Below are positions 7,225-13,781 of a DNA stretch of 64,000 nucleotides, in pieces. Position 1 is the stretch's first letter, and every line of letters begins with the position of its first letter. The position numbers and the translations under genes were made by a program. Origin of the DNA: Acidobacteriota bacterium (GTDB taxonomy: Bacteria > Acidobacteriota > Terriglobia > Bryobacterales > Bryobacteraceae); the NCBI GenBank assembly GCA_016213775.1, contig JACQZR010000075.1, forward strand, positions 1 to 64,000. Reading direction: 5' to 3'. Under the pieces are notes generated by a model. It did not search any database. It had not been told where the DNA came from and saw only the letters and a list, made by a program, of their open reading frames with translations.

Positions 7225-8304
7225 TTATTTATTGTAGCGGGCGGCGGCCCGAGGGCTCGCAGTGCGCGTGCGAATCCAGCGTGCGCCGCGGCCACGGCCC
7301 GTGAGGCGCACCTTGCCGCCATCCTTGAGTTCGGTGAGCACGCGCTTGGCGAGTTGCGGACTGACGGAAGGGTGTTGCGCGCATACATCGGCCAGCGTGA
7401 ACTCGCCGATTTGATCGAGGATGCCGCGGCGTAGCAGATCGGTCTTGGCGGGGCGAGCGGCGGCCTCAACGACGTGGCGGTCCCATTCCTGGTAGGCCTC
7501 GCGGAGAACGGCGAGGAACAGGTTCCACCAGGGGAGGATTTCGTTCTTGCCCTGGTGCCAGCGCGAGGAGCACTGGTGGAGAATCAGGTAGTAGTCGCTC
7601 TTACGTTCTTCCACTACGCGCTCCAGGCTGACGTAGCGGGCCACCTGAAACCCATGAGTCTCCAGCAGCAGTGTGGTGAGGAGGCGCGAGACGCGGCCAT
7701 TGCCGTCCCGAAACGGGTGGATGCAGAGCATGTCGAAAACGAAAGTGGCGATGATGAGCAGGGGCGGGATCTGCTGGTCGCGGCAGGCCTGCTGGTAGTT
7801 GCGGCAGAGGCGCTCGATTTCCGATGGCGTTTCCTTGGCGGCGGTGGGCGTGAAGCGGATCTTCCTGTCGCCGCCTGGAAGAATCTCAATGATTTCGTTG
7901 TTGTGGGCCTTGAACTGACCCGCATCGCCGCACATGCCACCCTGCGTGTAGGCATGGAGGCGAAGCAGCGTAGCGGGTTCGATGGGGACGGGGTGTTTGC
8001 GGCTGAAGATCCAGTCGAGCGCGCGGCGGTATCCGGCAAGCTCTTCCTCGGAACGGTCGCGAGGCTTGGAACGCTGCAAGACAACGGGGCGCAGGCGCTC
8101 CCGTTCCACGGTGACACCTTCAATCCGGTTGGAGGATTCGACGCTATGGATGATGGCGCGCTCGCGGAGGACTTCCAGGACTTCGGGTTTTTGTGCCACC
8201 CAAAGATCCTGTTTGCCGCGGAGTTCCATGCAGGAGCCGAGGAGCCAGCTTGTAGAGAGCGGGACGTTGAGAGTGGCGATTTTAGCGGGGTCAAGTGTGA
8301 GCAT
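7225..8304 (-). CDS. Fic-domain AMP-transferase with N-terminal inhibitory motif
   Basis: Fic proteins transfer AMP (or a related nucleotide moiety) to target hydroxyls. The core motif HPFRDGNGR is at residues 196-204, intact for catalysis (His base, Asp for metal, NGR for phosphates). An inhibitory motif of the form SxxxEG (Ser58-Glu62-Gly63, in SSNRIEG) lies N-terminal to the core, so the enzyme is expected to be held inactive by its own glutamate (class II Fic). A C-terminal winged-helix-like tail (residues ~300-359, basic) could bind DNA. Start chosen at the ATG 8304; an in-frame TTG at 8364 lies inside an upstream repeat and has no ribosome site. It ends 6 bp before serS. Confidence 0.9.
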   Translation of the reverse strand: MLTLDPAKIATLNVPLSTSWLLGSCMELRGKQDLWVAQKPEVLEVLRERAIIHSVESSNRIEGVTVERERLRPVVLQRSKPRDRSEEELAGYRRALDWIFSRKHPVPIEPATLLRLHAYTQGGMCGDAGQFKAHNNEIIEILPGGDRKIRFTPTAAKETPSEIERLCRNYQQACRDQQIPPLLIIATFVFDMLCIHPFRDGNGRVSRLLTTLLLETHGFQVARYVSLERVVEERKSDYYLILHQCSSRWHQGKNEILPWWNLFLAVLREAYQEWDRHVVEAAARPAKTDLLRRGILDQIGEFTLADVCAQHPSVSPQLAKRVLTELKDGGKVRLTGRGRGARWIRTRTASPRAAARYNK

Positions 8305-8324
8305 GGGAGAACTTCCAACTTCAG

Positions 8325-8438
8325 TGTAGCCTAAAAATAGCCAATTCGCATCAGCAGTAGCCAATTGCGGCCGGGCGAGGAATACCTGAGACTGTAGCCT
8401 ATTAATAGCTTATTCCGTGCGGGAGTAGCCAATTCGCC
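8325..8438. promoter_or_regulatory. Duplicated operator-like repeat upstream of the Fic gene
   Basis: Two imperfect 46-bp units, 8325-8370 and 8393-8438, are repeated with a 68-bp period. Each begins TGTAGCCTA, has an inner A/T-rich TAGC segment and ends AGTAGCCAATT. The nine-base phrase TAGCCAATT occurs three times, with a diverged fourth copy. The array fills the gap between the Fic gene (minus) and the lactonase gene (plus) and overlaps the spurious upstream extension of the Fic frame. Multiple spaced copies suggest binding sites for a regulator, possibly the Fic protein's own C-terminal winged-helix-like tail. Function is inferred. Confidence 0.5.
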
Positions 8439-9632: not shown

Positions 9633-10541
9633 CTACCCAAACAGCCGCGTGAAATTACCGCCAAGAATTGCCGCCGCCGCTTCCGCATCCACTCCGGCGG
9701 CTTGCATTGCCTCGCACTGCGCCTGAAAAACCGCTTGATTCCAACCGCGGGGGAAGAACGAAGAATCCGTCCCAAACAGCAGCCGTTGCGGGCCCGCGGC
9801 TTTGAGTGCGCGTTCAAAGACCTGCGCCAGAGACAGTCCCTCATAGCGCATCCAACTGTTGCTGCTCGAGGTGTCGAGGTAGACGTTGGGGCACAGATCC
9901 GCAAGCATCAGTGCTTCGCGAAAATAACCGGCGCCAAAGTGGGGAACGATGAACCGGATGGACGGGAACCGCAGCGCGAGCGCATGAAGATCGATGGGAT
10001 TGGAGTAGCGCATGTCAAACAGCGAGGGCAGGCCAAGCTTGCCGCGTACACCCACGCTCAACACGCCGCAGTGAACGAACACTGTGGAAGCAGGACGCCC
10101 GGCGCAAACGGCAAGTAGCTCGATGACACGCGGGTCGTGCAGCGAATACTGATGCATGGCCGGAAAAAGGCAGGGGACATGCAGTCTGCCGGAGGAGATG
10201 TGGCCGCTGGCATTCAACACCGCATCCGGGGCCGAGGGGTTCGCCATAAAGAACCCGCGGAATCGCGAAGGATGAGCGGCCACCGCCGCCGCGACACTCT
10301 CCTCATCGCCCGGCAAACTGGCGATCAGTGCCGCCGCGGTTACGCCCGCGCGGTCCAGTTCCCTGACCCAGTCGTTGGCAAGTTCCTTCGGATCCGGAGG
10401 CGGCATCACCCACCGCAGAGTGGTCTCCAGTTGGCTGAAGGTCAAGCCGGGCTTCTGCGCAGCCAGCAACTGGAAGAAGCGCTGCGAGAAGAAATGAATG
10501 TGCGCATCACAGACGGATATATCGCCCCAGGGTGTTTGCAT
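9633..10541 (-). CDS. Amidohydrolase-2 family metal-dependent hydrolase, last gene of the CarF operon
   Basis: 302-residue TIM-barrel protein of the amidohydrolase-2 (ACMS decarboxylase-like) group: N-terminal CDAHIHFFS (HxH), VHCGVLSVG, IVPHFGAGYFREA and GTDSSFFPRGWN with the late Asp, ending ILGGNFTRLFG as in the family. Start set at ATG 10541, preceded by AAGGAGAA; the frame stays open far upstream but only as a shadow of the neighbouring gene. It begins 8 bp after the membrane hydroxylase gene, so it is the fifth gene of a minus-strand operon starting at 13781. Substrate unknown; the setting suggests a product of lipid or aldehyde metabolism (inference). Confidence 0.88.
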   Translation of the reverse strand: MQTPWGDISVCDAHIHFFSQRFFQLLAAQKPGLTFSQLETTLRWVMPPPDPKELANDWVRELDRAGVTAAALIASLPGDEESVAAAVAAHPSRFRGFFMANPSAPDAVLNASGHISSGRLHVPCLFPAMHQYSLHDPRVIELLAVCAGRPASTVFVHCGVLSVGVRGKLGLPSLFDMRYSNPIDLHALALRFPSIRFIVPHFGAGYFREALMLADLCPNVYLDTSSSNSWMRYEGLSLAQVFERALKAAGPQRLLFGTDSSFFPRGWNQAVFQAQCEAMQAAGVDAEAAAAILGGNFTRLFG

Positions 10542-10549
10542 CAGTCTTT

Positions 10550-11680
10550 CTATTCTCCTTGAAATGGGTAGACGTGTTGACGCACCCAGCCACGGGGCAT
10601 TGGCGCGGCTCCACTCAAGCCATACGACGCGGGCCATTCTCGAGGGAGGTGGTAGGTTCCAAACAGCAGATCCCACACTGGTGTGTGGACCGCGAAGTTC
10701 CTGTCGATGGCATCGCGCGAATCGCTGTGATGCCAATGGTGGAAGGCCGGAGTGGCGATCCAGCGTTGCAGTGGGCGGAAGTTCCAGCGCACATTGGCGT
10801 GGATGAACGTGGCCTGCGCGGCGACGATCACTACGTAGATCATGATTGCCGTTTCTGAGAAGCCCAGCACATAAAGCGGAATGTAGGCGAGACTGCGGGT
10901 GACGATCGCATCGATCAGGTGAAGGCGTGAACCGGCGAGCCAGTCCATCACCTCGACGGAATGGTGGATTGCGTGGAAGCGCCACAAGGCGGGAATCCGG
11001 TGGAAGGCTCGATGTACCCAATATTGCGCAAGGTCGGCCACAAGGAGAATGGCCAGGATCTGGACGGGAAGTGGGCAGGCAGAGACGAATGCAACAATGG
11101 CGTGGTGCCGGGCCCAATCGAACAGGACCACCGCCGGCCGCAACGTAAGCAGGCTTGTGGCTTGCACCAGAAGATTGCTCACGAAGAAATATACGAGGTC
11201 AGTGCGCCAGTCCGTGCGAAACAAGCGCTGCTCGCGGCGAAGAGCGAACAACTGCTCCAGGGGCACAAACACCAGCGAGTAAACGATCAGGTTGAGGAGG
11301 AACCAATCGAGACCGAGGTATGGTCCGGGATTGGACGCGGTGCCCACCGGAGCTTGTGATCCGCCGAGAAGCGCGGCGATGCCGACGCTGGTCATACCGG
11401 CGATGCCGAGAGCTTTGTTGCGGCGGAGGTAGACACTGAGGATACCCAGCAGGAACGCGGCAATCAAAAGGATGTGGAGAAGGGCACGGACGGCGGGCAG
11501 AGGGTAGATTGCGCGCAATTCCGCGACGGTGAACCATTGCGGAAACTGAATGCAGATGACCGTGCCGCACGCCGTGAGTCCAAGAGCGAGGGAGAGGACA
11601 CCGGAAATCCAACCGTGGCCGAACGCCGTTGGTTCGGTGGTTTTGAGTGAGACGTGGGGAGGCCGCGGCTTGCTCATCAT
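10550..11680 (-). CDS. Sterol desaturase / fatty acid hydroxylase superfamily membrane enzyme (alkylglycerol-monooxygenase-like)
   Basis: 376-residue integral membrane di-iron enzyme with at least seven hydrophobic segments. The three histidine clusters of the superfamily are intact: HRAFH (~220), HAIHHS (~234) and HHWHH (~316), followed by the typical WDLLFGTYHLP. Members hydroxylate or desaturate lipids; one branch, alkylglycerol monooxygenase, cleaves ether lipids. The start ATGATG at 11680 has GAGGAG in front and overlaps the stop of the CarF-like desaturase by 4 bases. Tight coupling to that plasmalogen enzyme makes an ether-lipid substrate the leading idea (inference). The N-terminal 150 residues are an extra multi-helix region not needed for the family core. 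Confidence 0.87.
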   Translation of the reverse strand: MMSKPRPPHVSLKTTEPTAFGHGWISGVLSLALGLTACGTVICIQFPQWFTVAELRAIYPLPAVRALLHILLIAAFLLGILSVYLRRNKALGIAGMTSVGIAALLGGSQAPVGTASNPGPYLGLDWFLLNLIVYSLVFVPLEQLFALRREQRLFRTDWRTDLVYFFVSNLLVQATSLLTLRPAVVLFDWARHHAIVAFVSACPLPVQILAILLVADLAQYWVHRAFHRIPALWRFHAIHHSVEVMDWLAGSRLHLIDAIVTRSLAYIPLYVLGFSETAIMIYVVIVAAQATFIHANVRWNFRPLQRWIATPAFHHWHHSDSRDAIDRNFAVHTPVWDLLFGTYHLPREWPASYGLSGAAPMPRGWVRQHVYPFQGE

Positions 11681-12381
11681 ACGCTCCTCGCAGTTGAGAA
11701 GGAACGATCATCGTGACGGGGTTGTTGTCCGGTGAGTGTGGTGATGAGGTGTTCCAGGCGGACGAAGAAACCCAACTTCTCCAGCACCGGATTGCACCAG
11801 CCGGTGGTGATGCAATAGTGGCTGTCGTAAGGGGCGTTGTGATGCGAACAGTGCATTTGCGGCCGCAGGATAAGTCGGCAAGTCTGGAGAAAGCGAACCA
11901 GCCGGGGTGGAGTTGGAGAATGGGCCCACTGGTGAATCTGATTGGTGAACAGGCCGGCGGTGCAGATGCTCATGAGGTATTGCCAGGCTGCGGCGCCCCA
12001 GTCCGCGTCGAAAGGAATCCACAACGTGGTTGCGAGAACCGGTGCGGTGACGAGGGCGACGTCTCCGTTGAGATCCACGAAACCGCGATCAAGGATGTCG
12101 GCTGGATTTGCGTGATGCACGCGGAAAGGATGCAGCACGCGCCGTCCGAGGAGAGGCATGGCTGCTGAGCCCCACGTGTCGGCAAACCAGTGGAGAAGGC
12201 CGGACAGAAAATCCGCCGTGGCTACGCCGCACACGAACAGGACCGGGGTTTGCCATGATGGCCCTAACGCGGCGCACCACCAGCGGCTCAGACTGAGGCA
12301 CAGCCCCGCGCCTGCGAGACAGAGACTAACGTACTCGCCGGTTCTGCGGATCCACCCGGATGTGTCATGTCGCGGCAGCAT
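11677..12381 (-). CDS. carF: CarF/TMEM189-type plasmanylethanolamine desaturase
   Basis: 234-residue membrane protein of the lipid-desaturase family that includes Myxococcus CarF and animal PEDS1/TMEM189, which introduce the vinyl-ether double bond of plasmalogens. The conserved histidine landmarks are all visible: HWFADTWG (64-71), HPFRVHH then NPADI (84-95), a GDVAL segment, HQWAH (150-154), HCSHH (177-181) and HYCITTGW then NPVLEKLGF (188-205), with the terminal LTGQQPRHDD. In Myxococcus, CarF is needed for the light/singlet-oxygen response. Here it follows a response regulator by 21 bp and overlaps a hydroxylase-family gene, forming a regulated lipid operon. No clear Shine-Dalgarno is seen. 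Confidence 0.9.
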   Translation of the reverse strand: MLPRHDTSGWIRRTGEYVSLCLAGAGLCLSLSRWWCAALGPSWQTPVLFVCGVATADFLSGLLHWFADTWGSAAMPLLGRRVLHPFRVHHANPADILDRGFVDLNGDVALVTAPVLATTLWIPFDADWGAAAWQYLMSICTAGLFTNQIHQWAHSPTPPRLVRFLQTCRLILRPQMHCSHHNAPYDSHYCITTGWCNPVLEKLGFFVRLEHLITTLTGQQPRHDDRSFSTARSV

Positions 12382-12402
12382 CGTGGGCGAGGTGCAGGGC
12401 GG

Positions 12403-13083
12403 TTATGAGGTCTCTTCAACCTCGGGGTTGGTGAATCGTGTCAAACCCGCCGATAGAGCCAGTTGGGTCAGTCCCGCAACGTTCGACACCCCAAGTTTCT
12501 TCATCATTGTTTTGCGATAGCTGCGGACAGTCTGCAAACCGAGATCGAGCAGCACGGCGATTTCCTTGCTCGTCTTCCCTTCGGCAACGAGGCGCAGCAC
12601 CTGCACTTCACGAGGCGCCAGGCCGTCCAGGGCTTGCGGCGTCTTCTTCTCGTCGAGGTCCCCGCGCTTGATGCGATTCAGCAGACGGTCGGAAACCTGA
12701 GGGCTCAAGTAAGAACCGCCCTTGGCCACCGTACGCAAGGCATCCAGCAAATCCGCGTCGGATGCCCGCTTCAAAACAAACGCCCGCGCACCCGATCGGA
12801 TGGCGCTGACGACGCTGCTTTCGTCGTCGTACATAGAAAGGATGATCACTTTGGTTTCGGGACAGTGCCGCACAATCTCTGTGGTGGCCTCAATCCCGTT
12901 CATTTTGGGAAGGTGGATGTCAATCAGGACGATGTGTGGTTTCAGCCTTTTGGAAGATTGCACTGCTTCAGCGCCATCTTCCGCCTCGCCAACTACACGA
13001 AATTCGTCGCAACTTTTCAGGATGGCTTTGATGCCATCTCTCATAATTTTGTGATCGTCCACCAGCAAGATCTCGAATGGCAT
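12403..13083 (-). CDS. NarL/FixJ-type response regulator
   Basis: 226-residue transcription factor with a receiver domain (residues 1-120) and a LuxR-type HTH (about 150-215). The phosphoryl pocket is complete: acidic pair VDD at 8-10, phospho-acceptor Asp55 in VLIDIHLP, Ser83 and Lys105 in FVLKRAS. The HTH shows LAPREVQVLRLVAEGKTSKEIA and a recognition helix near QTVRSYRKTMMKKLGV. It follows the sensor kinase by 5 bp and precedes carF by 21 bp in the same orientation, so it is likely both expressed with and controlling the lipid genes. Confidence 0.95.
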   Translation of the reverse strand: MPFEILLVDDHKIMRDGIKAILKSCDEFRVVGEAEDGAEAVQSSKRLKPHIVLIDIHLPKMNGIEATTEIVRHCPETKVIILSMYDDESSVVSAIRSGARAFVLKRASDADLLDALRTVAKGGSYLSPQVSDRLLNRIKRGDLDEKKTPQALDGLAPREVQVLRLVAEGKTSKEIAVLLDLGLQTVRSYRKTMMKKLGVSNVAGLTQLALSAGLTRFTNPEVEETS

Positions 13084-13088
13084 TTCGT

Positions 13089-13781
13089 TTATCCCCCCAC
13101 GGGACCGTTATCCGGCATCTTGTAACCGGCGTGGACAGTTGTCGGACCATCGGCACGGCTGTTGATTCTTAAATCCAGACCGTGCTCGCGCGCAAGGTGG
13201 CGCATCCAGAGTAGCCCGCTACCTCGCGGGTTCTTTTCCGCATCCTCTACGCAAAATCCCTTTCCGTTATCCTTGATTTCCAATCGAACCTCGCGGCCGG
13301 CTGGTTGAATCATTATCTCAATCTGTTGCGCCCCGGAATGGCGCACAGCATTTTCCAATGCACACTCTGTAATTTTATAAAAAGCTATGCCGACTGGGAG
13401 GGGCAGGTGGACATGCGAATCCATCAGGAACCGGATGCCGCAAGTCTCGCTCTCCCGCGCTTCGCCGATGAGCATGTCCAGGGCGTAGCGCAGACCCGAT
13501 CGTTGCACGCGATCGGGATTGATGGTGTAGGTGAGTTGGCGAACGGTGTCGATGGCTTTCTCCAGCAACTGCTGGATCTCGGCGGTGCGCTCACCGAGCT
13601 CGGGAACGCGGTCACGGAAATCCTGCTTGAGGAGATCGAGATGCAGGCCCACTACAGTGAGGATCTGCCCGGTGTCCTCATGGAGAACGCGGGCGACACG
13701 CTGCAACTCCGACTGGTGCTGACGGATTTCCGCGATCAGCCGTTCAGGCAGAGCAGCCGGAGATGCGACAATTTCAGCCAT
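13089..13781 (-). CDS. Short cytoplasmic sensor histidine kinase (HisKA_3 type)
   Basis: 230-residue kinase of the NarX/DesK class with only the dimerisation and ATPase modules. Phospho-acceptor His34 is in RVLHEDTGQ; the N box is ECALENAVRHSGA (Asn144); G boxes are DNGKGF (171-176) and GSGLLWMRHLA (187-197). There is no membrane segment and no recognisable sensor domain before the His-containing helix, so the input must come from another protein, from redox or ligand binding in the short N-terminus, or from membrane association. It is the first gene of the operon that ends at 9633. The cognate regulator is adjacent (5 bp). Confidence 0.93.
   Translation of the reverse strand: MAEIVASPAALPERLIAEIRQHQSELQRVARVLHEDTGQILTVVGLHLDLLKQDFRDRVPELGERTAEIQQLLEKAIDTVRQLTYTINPDRVQRSGLRYALDMLIGEARESETCGIRFLMDSHVHLPLPVGIAFYKITECALENAVRHSGAQQIEIMIQPAGREVRLEIKDNGKGFCVEDAEKNPRGSGLLWMRHLAREHGLDLRINSRADGPTTVHAGYKMPDNGPVGG

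Follow-up and report, generated by a model that had tools for sequence, protein, structure and literature searches.

A stretch of 64,000 nucleotides from an Acidobacteriota bacterium of the family Bryobacteraceae (GenBank assembly GCA_016213775.1, contig JACQZR010000075.1, positions 1 to 64,000; hereafter the window) carries a CarF-like membrane desaturase gene side by side with the gene for a membrane oxidase of the FA_hydroxylase superfamily. Together the two probably form a lipid-oxidation cassette whose enzymes act on one lipid and which was inserted into a resident operon. CarF/TMEM189, also named PEDS1, was identified as the plasmalogen desaturase in 2019; the window gene adds a new variant to the CarF/FAD4 superfamily and is grafted, with its partner, into an unrelated regulator operon. 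The host assembly comprises 10.96 Mb in 314 contigs, with a completeness of 98.5% and a contamination of 4.6%. Five genes lie on the minus strand in the order kinase, regulator, desaturase, hydroxylase and amidohydrolase, with gaps of 5, 21, -4 and 8 base pairs, exactly as given in a preliminary description made from the DNA alone:

13089..13781, minus strand: HisKA_3 histidine kinase of 230 amino acids (aa) (Pfam HisKA_3 and HATPase_c), a resident operon gene
12403..13083, minus strand: NarL-type response regulator (Pfam Response_reg and GerE), a resident operon gene upstream of the inserted pair
11677..12381, minus strand: CarF/FAD4-superfamily membrane desaturase of 234 aa, Arg-type (R99) (Lipid_desat, PF10520, 184 bits)
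10550..11680, minus strand: FA_hydroxylase-superfamily membrane oxidase of 376 aa (PF04116, 107 bits), the partner of the desaturase
9633..10541, minus strand: Amidohydro_2 hydrolase of 302 aa, start ATG at 10541 (PF04909, 97 bits), a resident gene downstream of the pair

The pairing of desaturase and hydroxylase recurs far from the window. When 92 other CarF-like loci (L015-L106), several of which end at contig ends, were searched with the five window proteins, a hydroxylase orthologue was found beside the CarF-like gene in 20 of them. The window desaturase belongs to a separate clade of at least 19 members from Planctomycetota, Verrucomicrobiota and Acidobacteriota (support 100/99), called here the Arg/Cys clade after the residues at one position discussed below, and the hydroxylase adjoins the desaturase in 18 of these 19 (the window, L017 and 16 of the 17 loci L027-L043). 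It also adjoins a desaturase of the His type in three loci (L015, L016, L022), and is linked to none of the desaturases in the 63 mostly myxobacterial loci L044-L106. The layout is variable, with both genes mostly on the same strand and on opposite strands in L030, L032 and L022. The pair is real, being found together in several phyla and layouts, and the linkage of CarF homologues to a fatty-acid-hydroxylase gene that the preliminary description had raised extends well beyond the window. Keyword searches of a limited literature collection returned no paper joining CarF and TMEM189 to Acidobacteria, nor one combining plasmanylethanolamine desaturase, fatty acid hydroxylase and gene cluster.

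The linked hydroxylases are rejected as one clade in a tree that took in 14 unlinked relatives (p-AU 8.4e-40), which requires at least five linkage changes, gains or losses. Holding the Arg/Cys clade together with L015, L016 and L022 in the desaturase tree gave a p-AU of 0.023 and at least four changes, including that of the unlinked L038; gains and losses were counted alike. Because the layouts and the desaturase types differ, several gains are favoured, and these trees suggest that the pairing was probably gained more than once. Since the pair is found side by side in distant bacteria, action of both enzymes on the same lipid is probable.

The two families also tend to occur in the same genomes. 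Of 396 genomes of the phylum, 10 carry the desaturase family above the cut-off and 14 have a hydroxylase scoring at least 400 bits, with 6 genomes in both groups (Fisher p 1e-7); in three of these six the genes are on separate contigs, and p is 5e-4 after removal of the three linked genomes, in tests that ignore relatedness and on a set that includes the window genome. Three weaker hydroxylase matches (210-292 bits) and one PF10520 match below the cut-off (G514) were dropped from this count, and the hydroxylase cut-offs (1e-60, 400 bits and 1e-90) were set by us. Among 195 Myxococcota, PF10520 is present in 105, the hydroxylase in 38 and both in 36 (p 2e-9), so that 36 of the 38 hydroxylase genomes have PF10520 against 69 of the 157 others. 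Besides the limits of the tests, several observations weigh against a cassette acting on one lipid: a single pairing followed by losses could likewise yield a scattered tree, L038 (genome G553) has a desaturase without a linked hydroxylase, the unlinked cases G264, G480 and G494 carry a distant PF10520 subfamily that forms the outgroup of the tree (L023-L025), and 8 of the 14 phylum genomes with the hydroxylase lack any PF10520 gene, so that the desaturase is not always needed. The last of these would also fit chance neighbourhood, in which lipid genes merely tend to gather and the two enzymes act on unrelated lipids, as would the finding that no common lipid theme was seen by eye around the unlinked hydroxylases in 9 of 12 loci (in L202, L204 and L205 the hydroxylase was not recovered). 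The recurrence of the pairing in several layouts and phyla, and the co-occurrence in Myxococcota without linkage near carF, make this explanation improbable.

That the pair is a newcomer at this position is seen from the genus. The amidohydrolase is present in all 12 genus genomes, the window's own included, and aligns from its first residue in 11 of them. In 8 of the 11 other genus genomes (L186-L193) the kinase, regulator and amidohydrolase genes follow one another directly, with neither desaturase nor hydroxylase between them; the pair therefore entered the operon between the last two genes in the lineage of the window. In another genus genome (L196:5334-9863), two opposite-strand genes of 852 and 652 aa separate the regulator from the amidohydrolase, so that this junction was broken more than once; in the stretch read of L194 and L195, neither kinase nor regulator accompanies the amidohydrolase. 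The absence of PF10520 from the genus was checked over the whole genome in G042, G098, G125 and G143 and over the operon region in the others. The family is scarce in the wider surroundings as well, with 3 of 150 genomes of the taxonomic family and 11 of 396 of the phylum, 10 of them above the cut-off.

Horizontal transfer of the pair is likely, and relocation within the genome is possible. The window hydroxylase is placed in its tree with L017 and planctomycetes (99/95) and not with L028, and the His-type genes of the same taxonomic family (L015, L016) stand elsewhere in both trees. Two points speak against transfer. An Arg-type pair also occurs, in a different setting, in L028 from the apparently close relative G546, so that transfer from another phylum is not proven, and the GC content of the pair (0.60-0.61 against 0.61 for the window) gives no signal of recent transfer. 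The PlsA-like protein of the host, described below, and its counterpart in G546 share 87% identity over 923 aa; the identity with the counterpart in G031, from the same family, is 83%. Plasmid sequences searched for desaturase homologues at E 1e-5 yielded none.

According to the preliminary description, the five genes form a single unit whose dedicated two-component system serves to sense ether lipids and to control them. The short gaps between five genes on one strand agree with this. A kinase or regulator adjoins the CarF-like gene in none of the 92 other loci, however, where the sole two-component match is a regulator-like protein of 49 bits at a distance of 7.9 kb (L016). The flanking three-gene operon exists without the pair in the eight genus genomes above, and the kinase lacks a recognised sensor domain, a Pfam search having given just HisKA_3 and HATPase-type matches. 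The single-unit explanation is largely refuted and very improbable, and the proposed conserved linkage of CarF homologues to a HisKA_3/NarL pair has fallen with it: a two-component-controlled CarF operon was rejected as a conserved system. The link of the pair to the two-component system is local and is no evidence for an ether-lipid sensor, though the grafted pair may now be under two-component control.

The preliminary description credited the desaturase with every histidine landmark of CarF/TMEM189, and the eight universal catalytic histidines are indeed kept (H64, H89, H90, H150, H154, H177, H180 and H181). So are the Asp and Phe required for PEDS1 activity (mouse D100 and F118), which correspond to D68 and F86 by their spacing from the histidines numbered in PMC8960569 and are invariant in alignment A4. 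The claim fails at the ninth, PEDS1-specific histidine (CarF H113, mouse H131), which is R99 in the window desaturase. Across the 19 clade members this position holds Arg in 15 and Cys in 4, and in the loci L044-L106 it is His in 62 of the 63, L078 having Lys. In the excerpted text of PMC9131029, homologues from metazoans, myxobacteria and Leptospira are described as having the ninth histidine, which is essential to CarF, while the position is usually Arg in plants and the histidine is absent in Alphaproteobacteria, and the homologues tested from these failed to complement. The same excerpts report true CarF homologues outside myxobacteria just in Leptospira (PMC9131029). Acidobacteriota also carry His-type PF10520 genes (L015, L016, L018-L022), which lie outside the taxa listed for CarF in that text.

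The CarF placement of the gene at 11.7-12.4 kb holds at the level of the Lipid_desat family and gives way, within it, to the separate Arg/Cys clade; against the NCBIfam CarF equivalog model the protein scores 173 bits, below the cut-off of 500. The relatives were drawn from a scan of genome contigs that kept the best 80 of 304, so that clade sizes are lower bounds. The desaturase tree included 22 of the 63 loci L044-L106, and L026 was left out of a second tree for its long branch. Seven loci (L044, L057, L072, L073, L092, L103, L105) with long frames were considered as CarF-like fusion proteins and rejected, since a second Pfam domain is absent and the frames are probably upstream open-frame extensions. 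Taken together, the residues and the clade make a variant with another lipid specificity more likely than a plain plasmalogen synthase; plasmalogen synthesis by the pair is possible and not favoured.

Two alternative explanations name a substrate, and their probabilities overlap with that of the cassette, from which they differ just in the substrate named. If the enzyme were FAD4-like, it would act on an ester-linked acyl chain of a phospholipid, with the hydroxylase acting on the same or a neighbouring chain. Plant FAD4, the trans-3 desaturase of phosphatidylglycerol, belongs to the same superfamily, and plants usually have Arg where the ninth histidine would stand (PMC9131029, as excerpted); the scarcity of full known ether-lipid genes in the clade, detailed below, also fits. 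No grouping of the clade with FAD4 was seen in the tree, however, in which a provisional FAD4 sequence sits unplaced on a branch 4.2 long, and four clade members have Cys in place of Arg. We regard this alternative as possible but doubtful.

The second alternative is a true PEDS1, which would convert a host alkyl ether lipid into a plasmalogen by desaturation; the hydroxylase would then modify this plasmalogen or turn it over. The likeness to CarF/TMEM189/PEDS1 lies in the Lipid_desat family, the eight essential histidines and the retained D68 and F86, and mouse H131A, the equivalent of R99, still keeps about 7% of the activity (PMC8960569, as excerpted). In Myxococcota the hydroxylase orthologue is, moreover, nearly restricted to PF10520 genomes. 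The difference lies in the Arg (Cys in four) at the ninth position, where complementing homologues have a histidine that the non-complementing ones lack (PMC9131029, as excerpted), in the shortfall against the CarF model, in the separate clade and in the linked hydroxylase.

Ether-lipid genes bear on the same question. They were searched in 13 genomes of the 19 clade members, the 12 non-host ones being partly metagenome-assembled genomes (MAGs) of unstated completeness, and MAG gaps and unknown routes limit what their absence means. The host has no AGPS orthologue, its best match scoring 81 bits against 91 and 86 for other FAD-linked oxidases of M. xanthus, and no full-length ElbD was found in its genome. 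It does have a PlsA-like gene of 1193 aa (BcrAD_BadFG and DUF2229), which adjoins a gene of 598 aa. Across the 13 genomes, an AGPS-like gene is present in G551 (272 bits, 32% identity), a full ElbD in G553, and both G000 and G546 have a full PF09989. In the remaining nine no full known ether-lipid gene is seen, with a PF09989 fragment in G552 and partial ElbD matches that lack the reductase in G495 and G555, and in this the clade differs from PEDS1. The AGPS-like FAD-linked oxidase of G551 (L246:3784-5514, G551:C435) is on the same contig as the pair (L034), about 8 kb away; the several genes between them have by eye the look of sulfate uptake, and the proximity is a weak point in favour of the plasmalogen reading. 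L038 in G553, the sole clade member without a linked hydroxylase, comes from the only one of the 13 genomes with a full-length ElbD-like protein, which is on another contig. FAR (PF07993) was rejected as a marker of ether-lipid synthesis, since it has matches in all 14 control genomes; the locus of one strong planctomycete match (L139) resembles by eye the natural-product type.

Solibacter usitatus, apparently a relative of the host, makes ether lipids without ElbD and has PlsAR homologues (PMC10087280, as excerpted). An ether-lipid substrate is plausible in the host because of its PlsA-like gene and of the ether lipids of S. usitatus, and both favour a true PEDS1. According to excerpts of a Black Sea survey, Ger and PlsA homologues are indistinguishable by sequence alone (PMC11868695). 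The plasmalogen assignment of the preliminary description thus keeps the eight histidines, the Asp and Phe and the PlsA-like gene on its side, and has R99, the separate clade and the patchy ether-lipid genes against it; a true PEDS1 is rather unlikely.

In agreement with the preliminary description, the partner enzyme is a membrane hydroxylase with the histidine clusters of its superfamily, and it shares the FA_hydroxylase domain with AGMO, OlsE and Scs7p. It differs from these as a subfamily of its own, in which a helical region of about 125 aa at the N-terminus is conserved. The ether-lipid-cleaving branch suggested earlier does not fit: the protein scores 56 bits against a provisional AGMO sequence, where two M. 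xanthus proteins reach 216 and 190, and an AGMO identity was rejected at this sensitivity. Those two FA_hydroxylase proteins (L223 and L227, G543:C111; scored against the same human AGMO sequence) are candidates for bacterial ether-lipid cleavage. Against the NCBIfam OlsE model of ornithine-lipid hydroxylases, the window protein scores 115 bits, below the cut-off of 475.

M. xanthus has an orthologue of the window hydroxylase (L235:150-1337, G543:C81), with the N-terminal region in common and 451 bits to a profile built without it; this is the independent score, as alignment A5, used in the Myxococcota search, held two M. xanthus proteins. Unlike the window gene, the orthologue is not beside its desaturase. 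It is near a contig end and on a different contig from carF, and no hydroxylase is within 8 kb of carF (L065).

A confident AlphaFold model of the desaturase (pLDDT, the predicted local distance difference test, 93.3) has its closest fold in the yeast hydroxylase Scs7p (Foldseek E 0.047; Z 7.8), and stearoyl-CoA desaturase, a weaker match, gives Z 4.7; these fold matches favour the cassette reading. By sequence, the desaturase has no relatives in the PDB, and the hydroxylase has one match (E 0.15). The cassette reading is weakened by the modest fold scores of the desaturase, the best Z being 7.8 where an unrelated transporter reaches 5.2, and by the hydroxylase model, which has no fold match in the PDB with E < 0.9. 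Elsewhere in the window (7225-8364), a Fic/DOC-family protein adjoins a seryl-tRNA synthetase.

The preferred reading, a cassette of two enzymes working on one lipid, can be put as a sequence of steps. Each enzyme is a predicted membrane oxidase whose histidine clusters are of the di-iron type that uses oxygen, and most likely the two act one after the other on the same lipid, oxidising it near the glycerol end. By FAD4/PEDS1 chemistry, the desaturase would introduce a double bond first, and the hydroxylase would then further oxidise that same chain. Having arrived between regulator and amidohydrolase by horizontal transfer or relocation, the pair would now probably be co-transcribed with the resident operon and perhaps controlled by its two-component system. 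A wider proposal is conceivable, and we put it forward tentatively: in Planctomycetota, Verrucomicrobiota and Acidobacteriota, Arg/Cys CarF relatives and their hydroxylases would make a new lipid class by oxidising one chain twice near its glycerol end, and the M. xanthus orthologue would be a so far overlooked enzyme whose substrates are plasmalogens or precursors of these.

The insertion shows that an apparent regulated operon can arise from a graft. With an essential residue altered and a hydroxylase as its regular partner, the Arg/Cys clade offers a handle on what determines substrate choice among members of the PEDS1/FAD4 superfamily. The M. xanthus hydroxylase orthologue is almost confined to genomes with the CarF family, and it is found in the very species in which CarF was characterised and for which plasmalogen and light assays exist.

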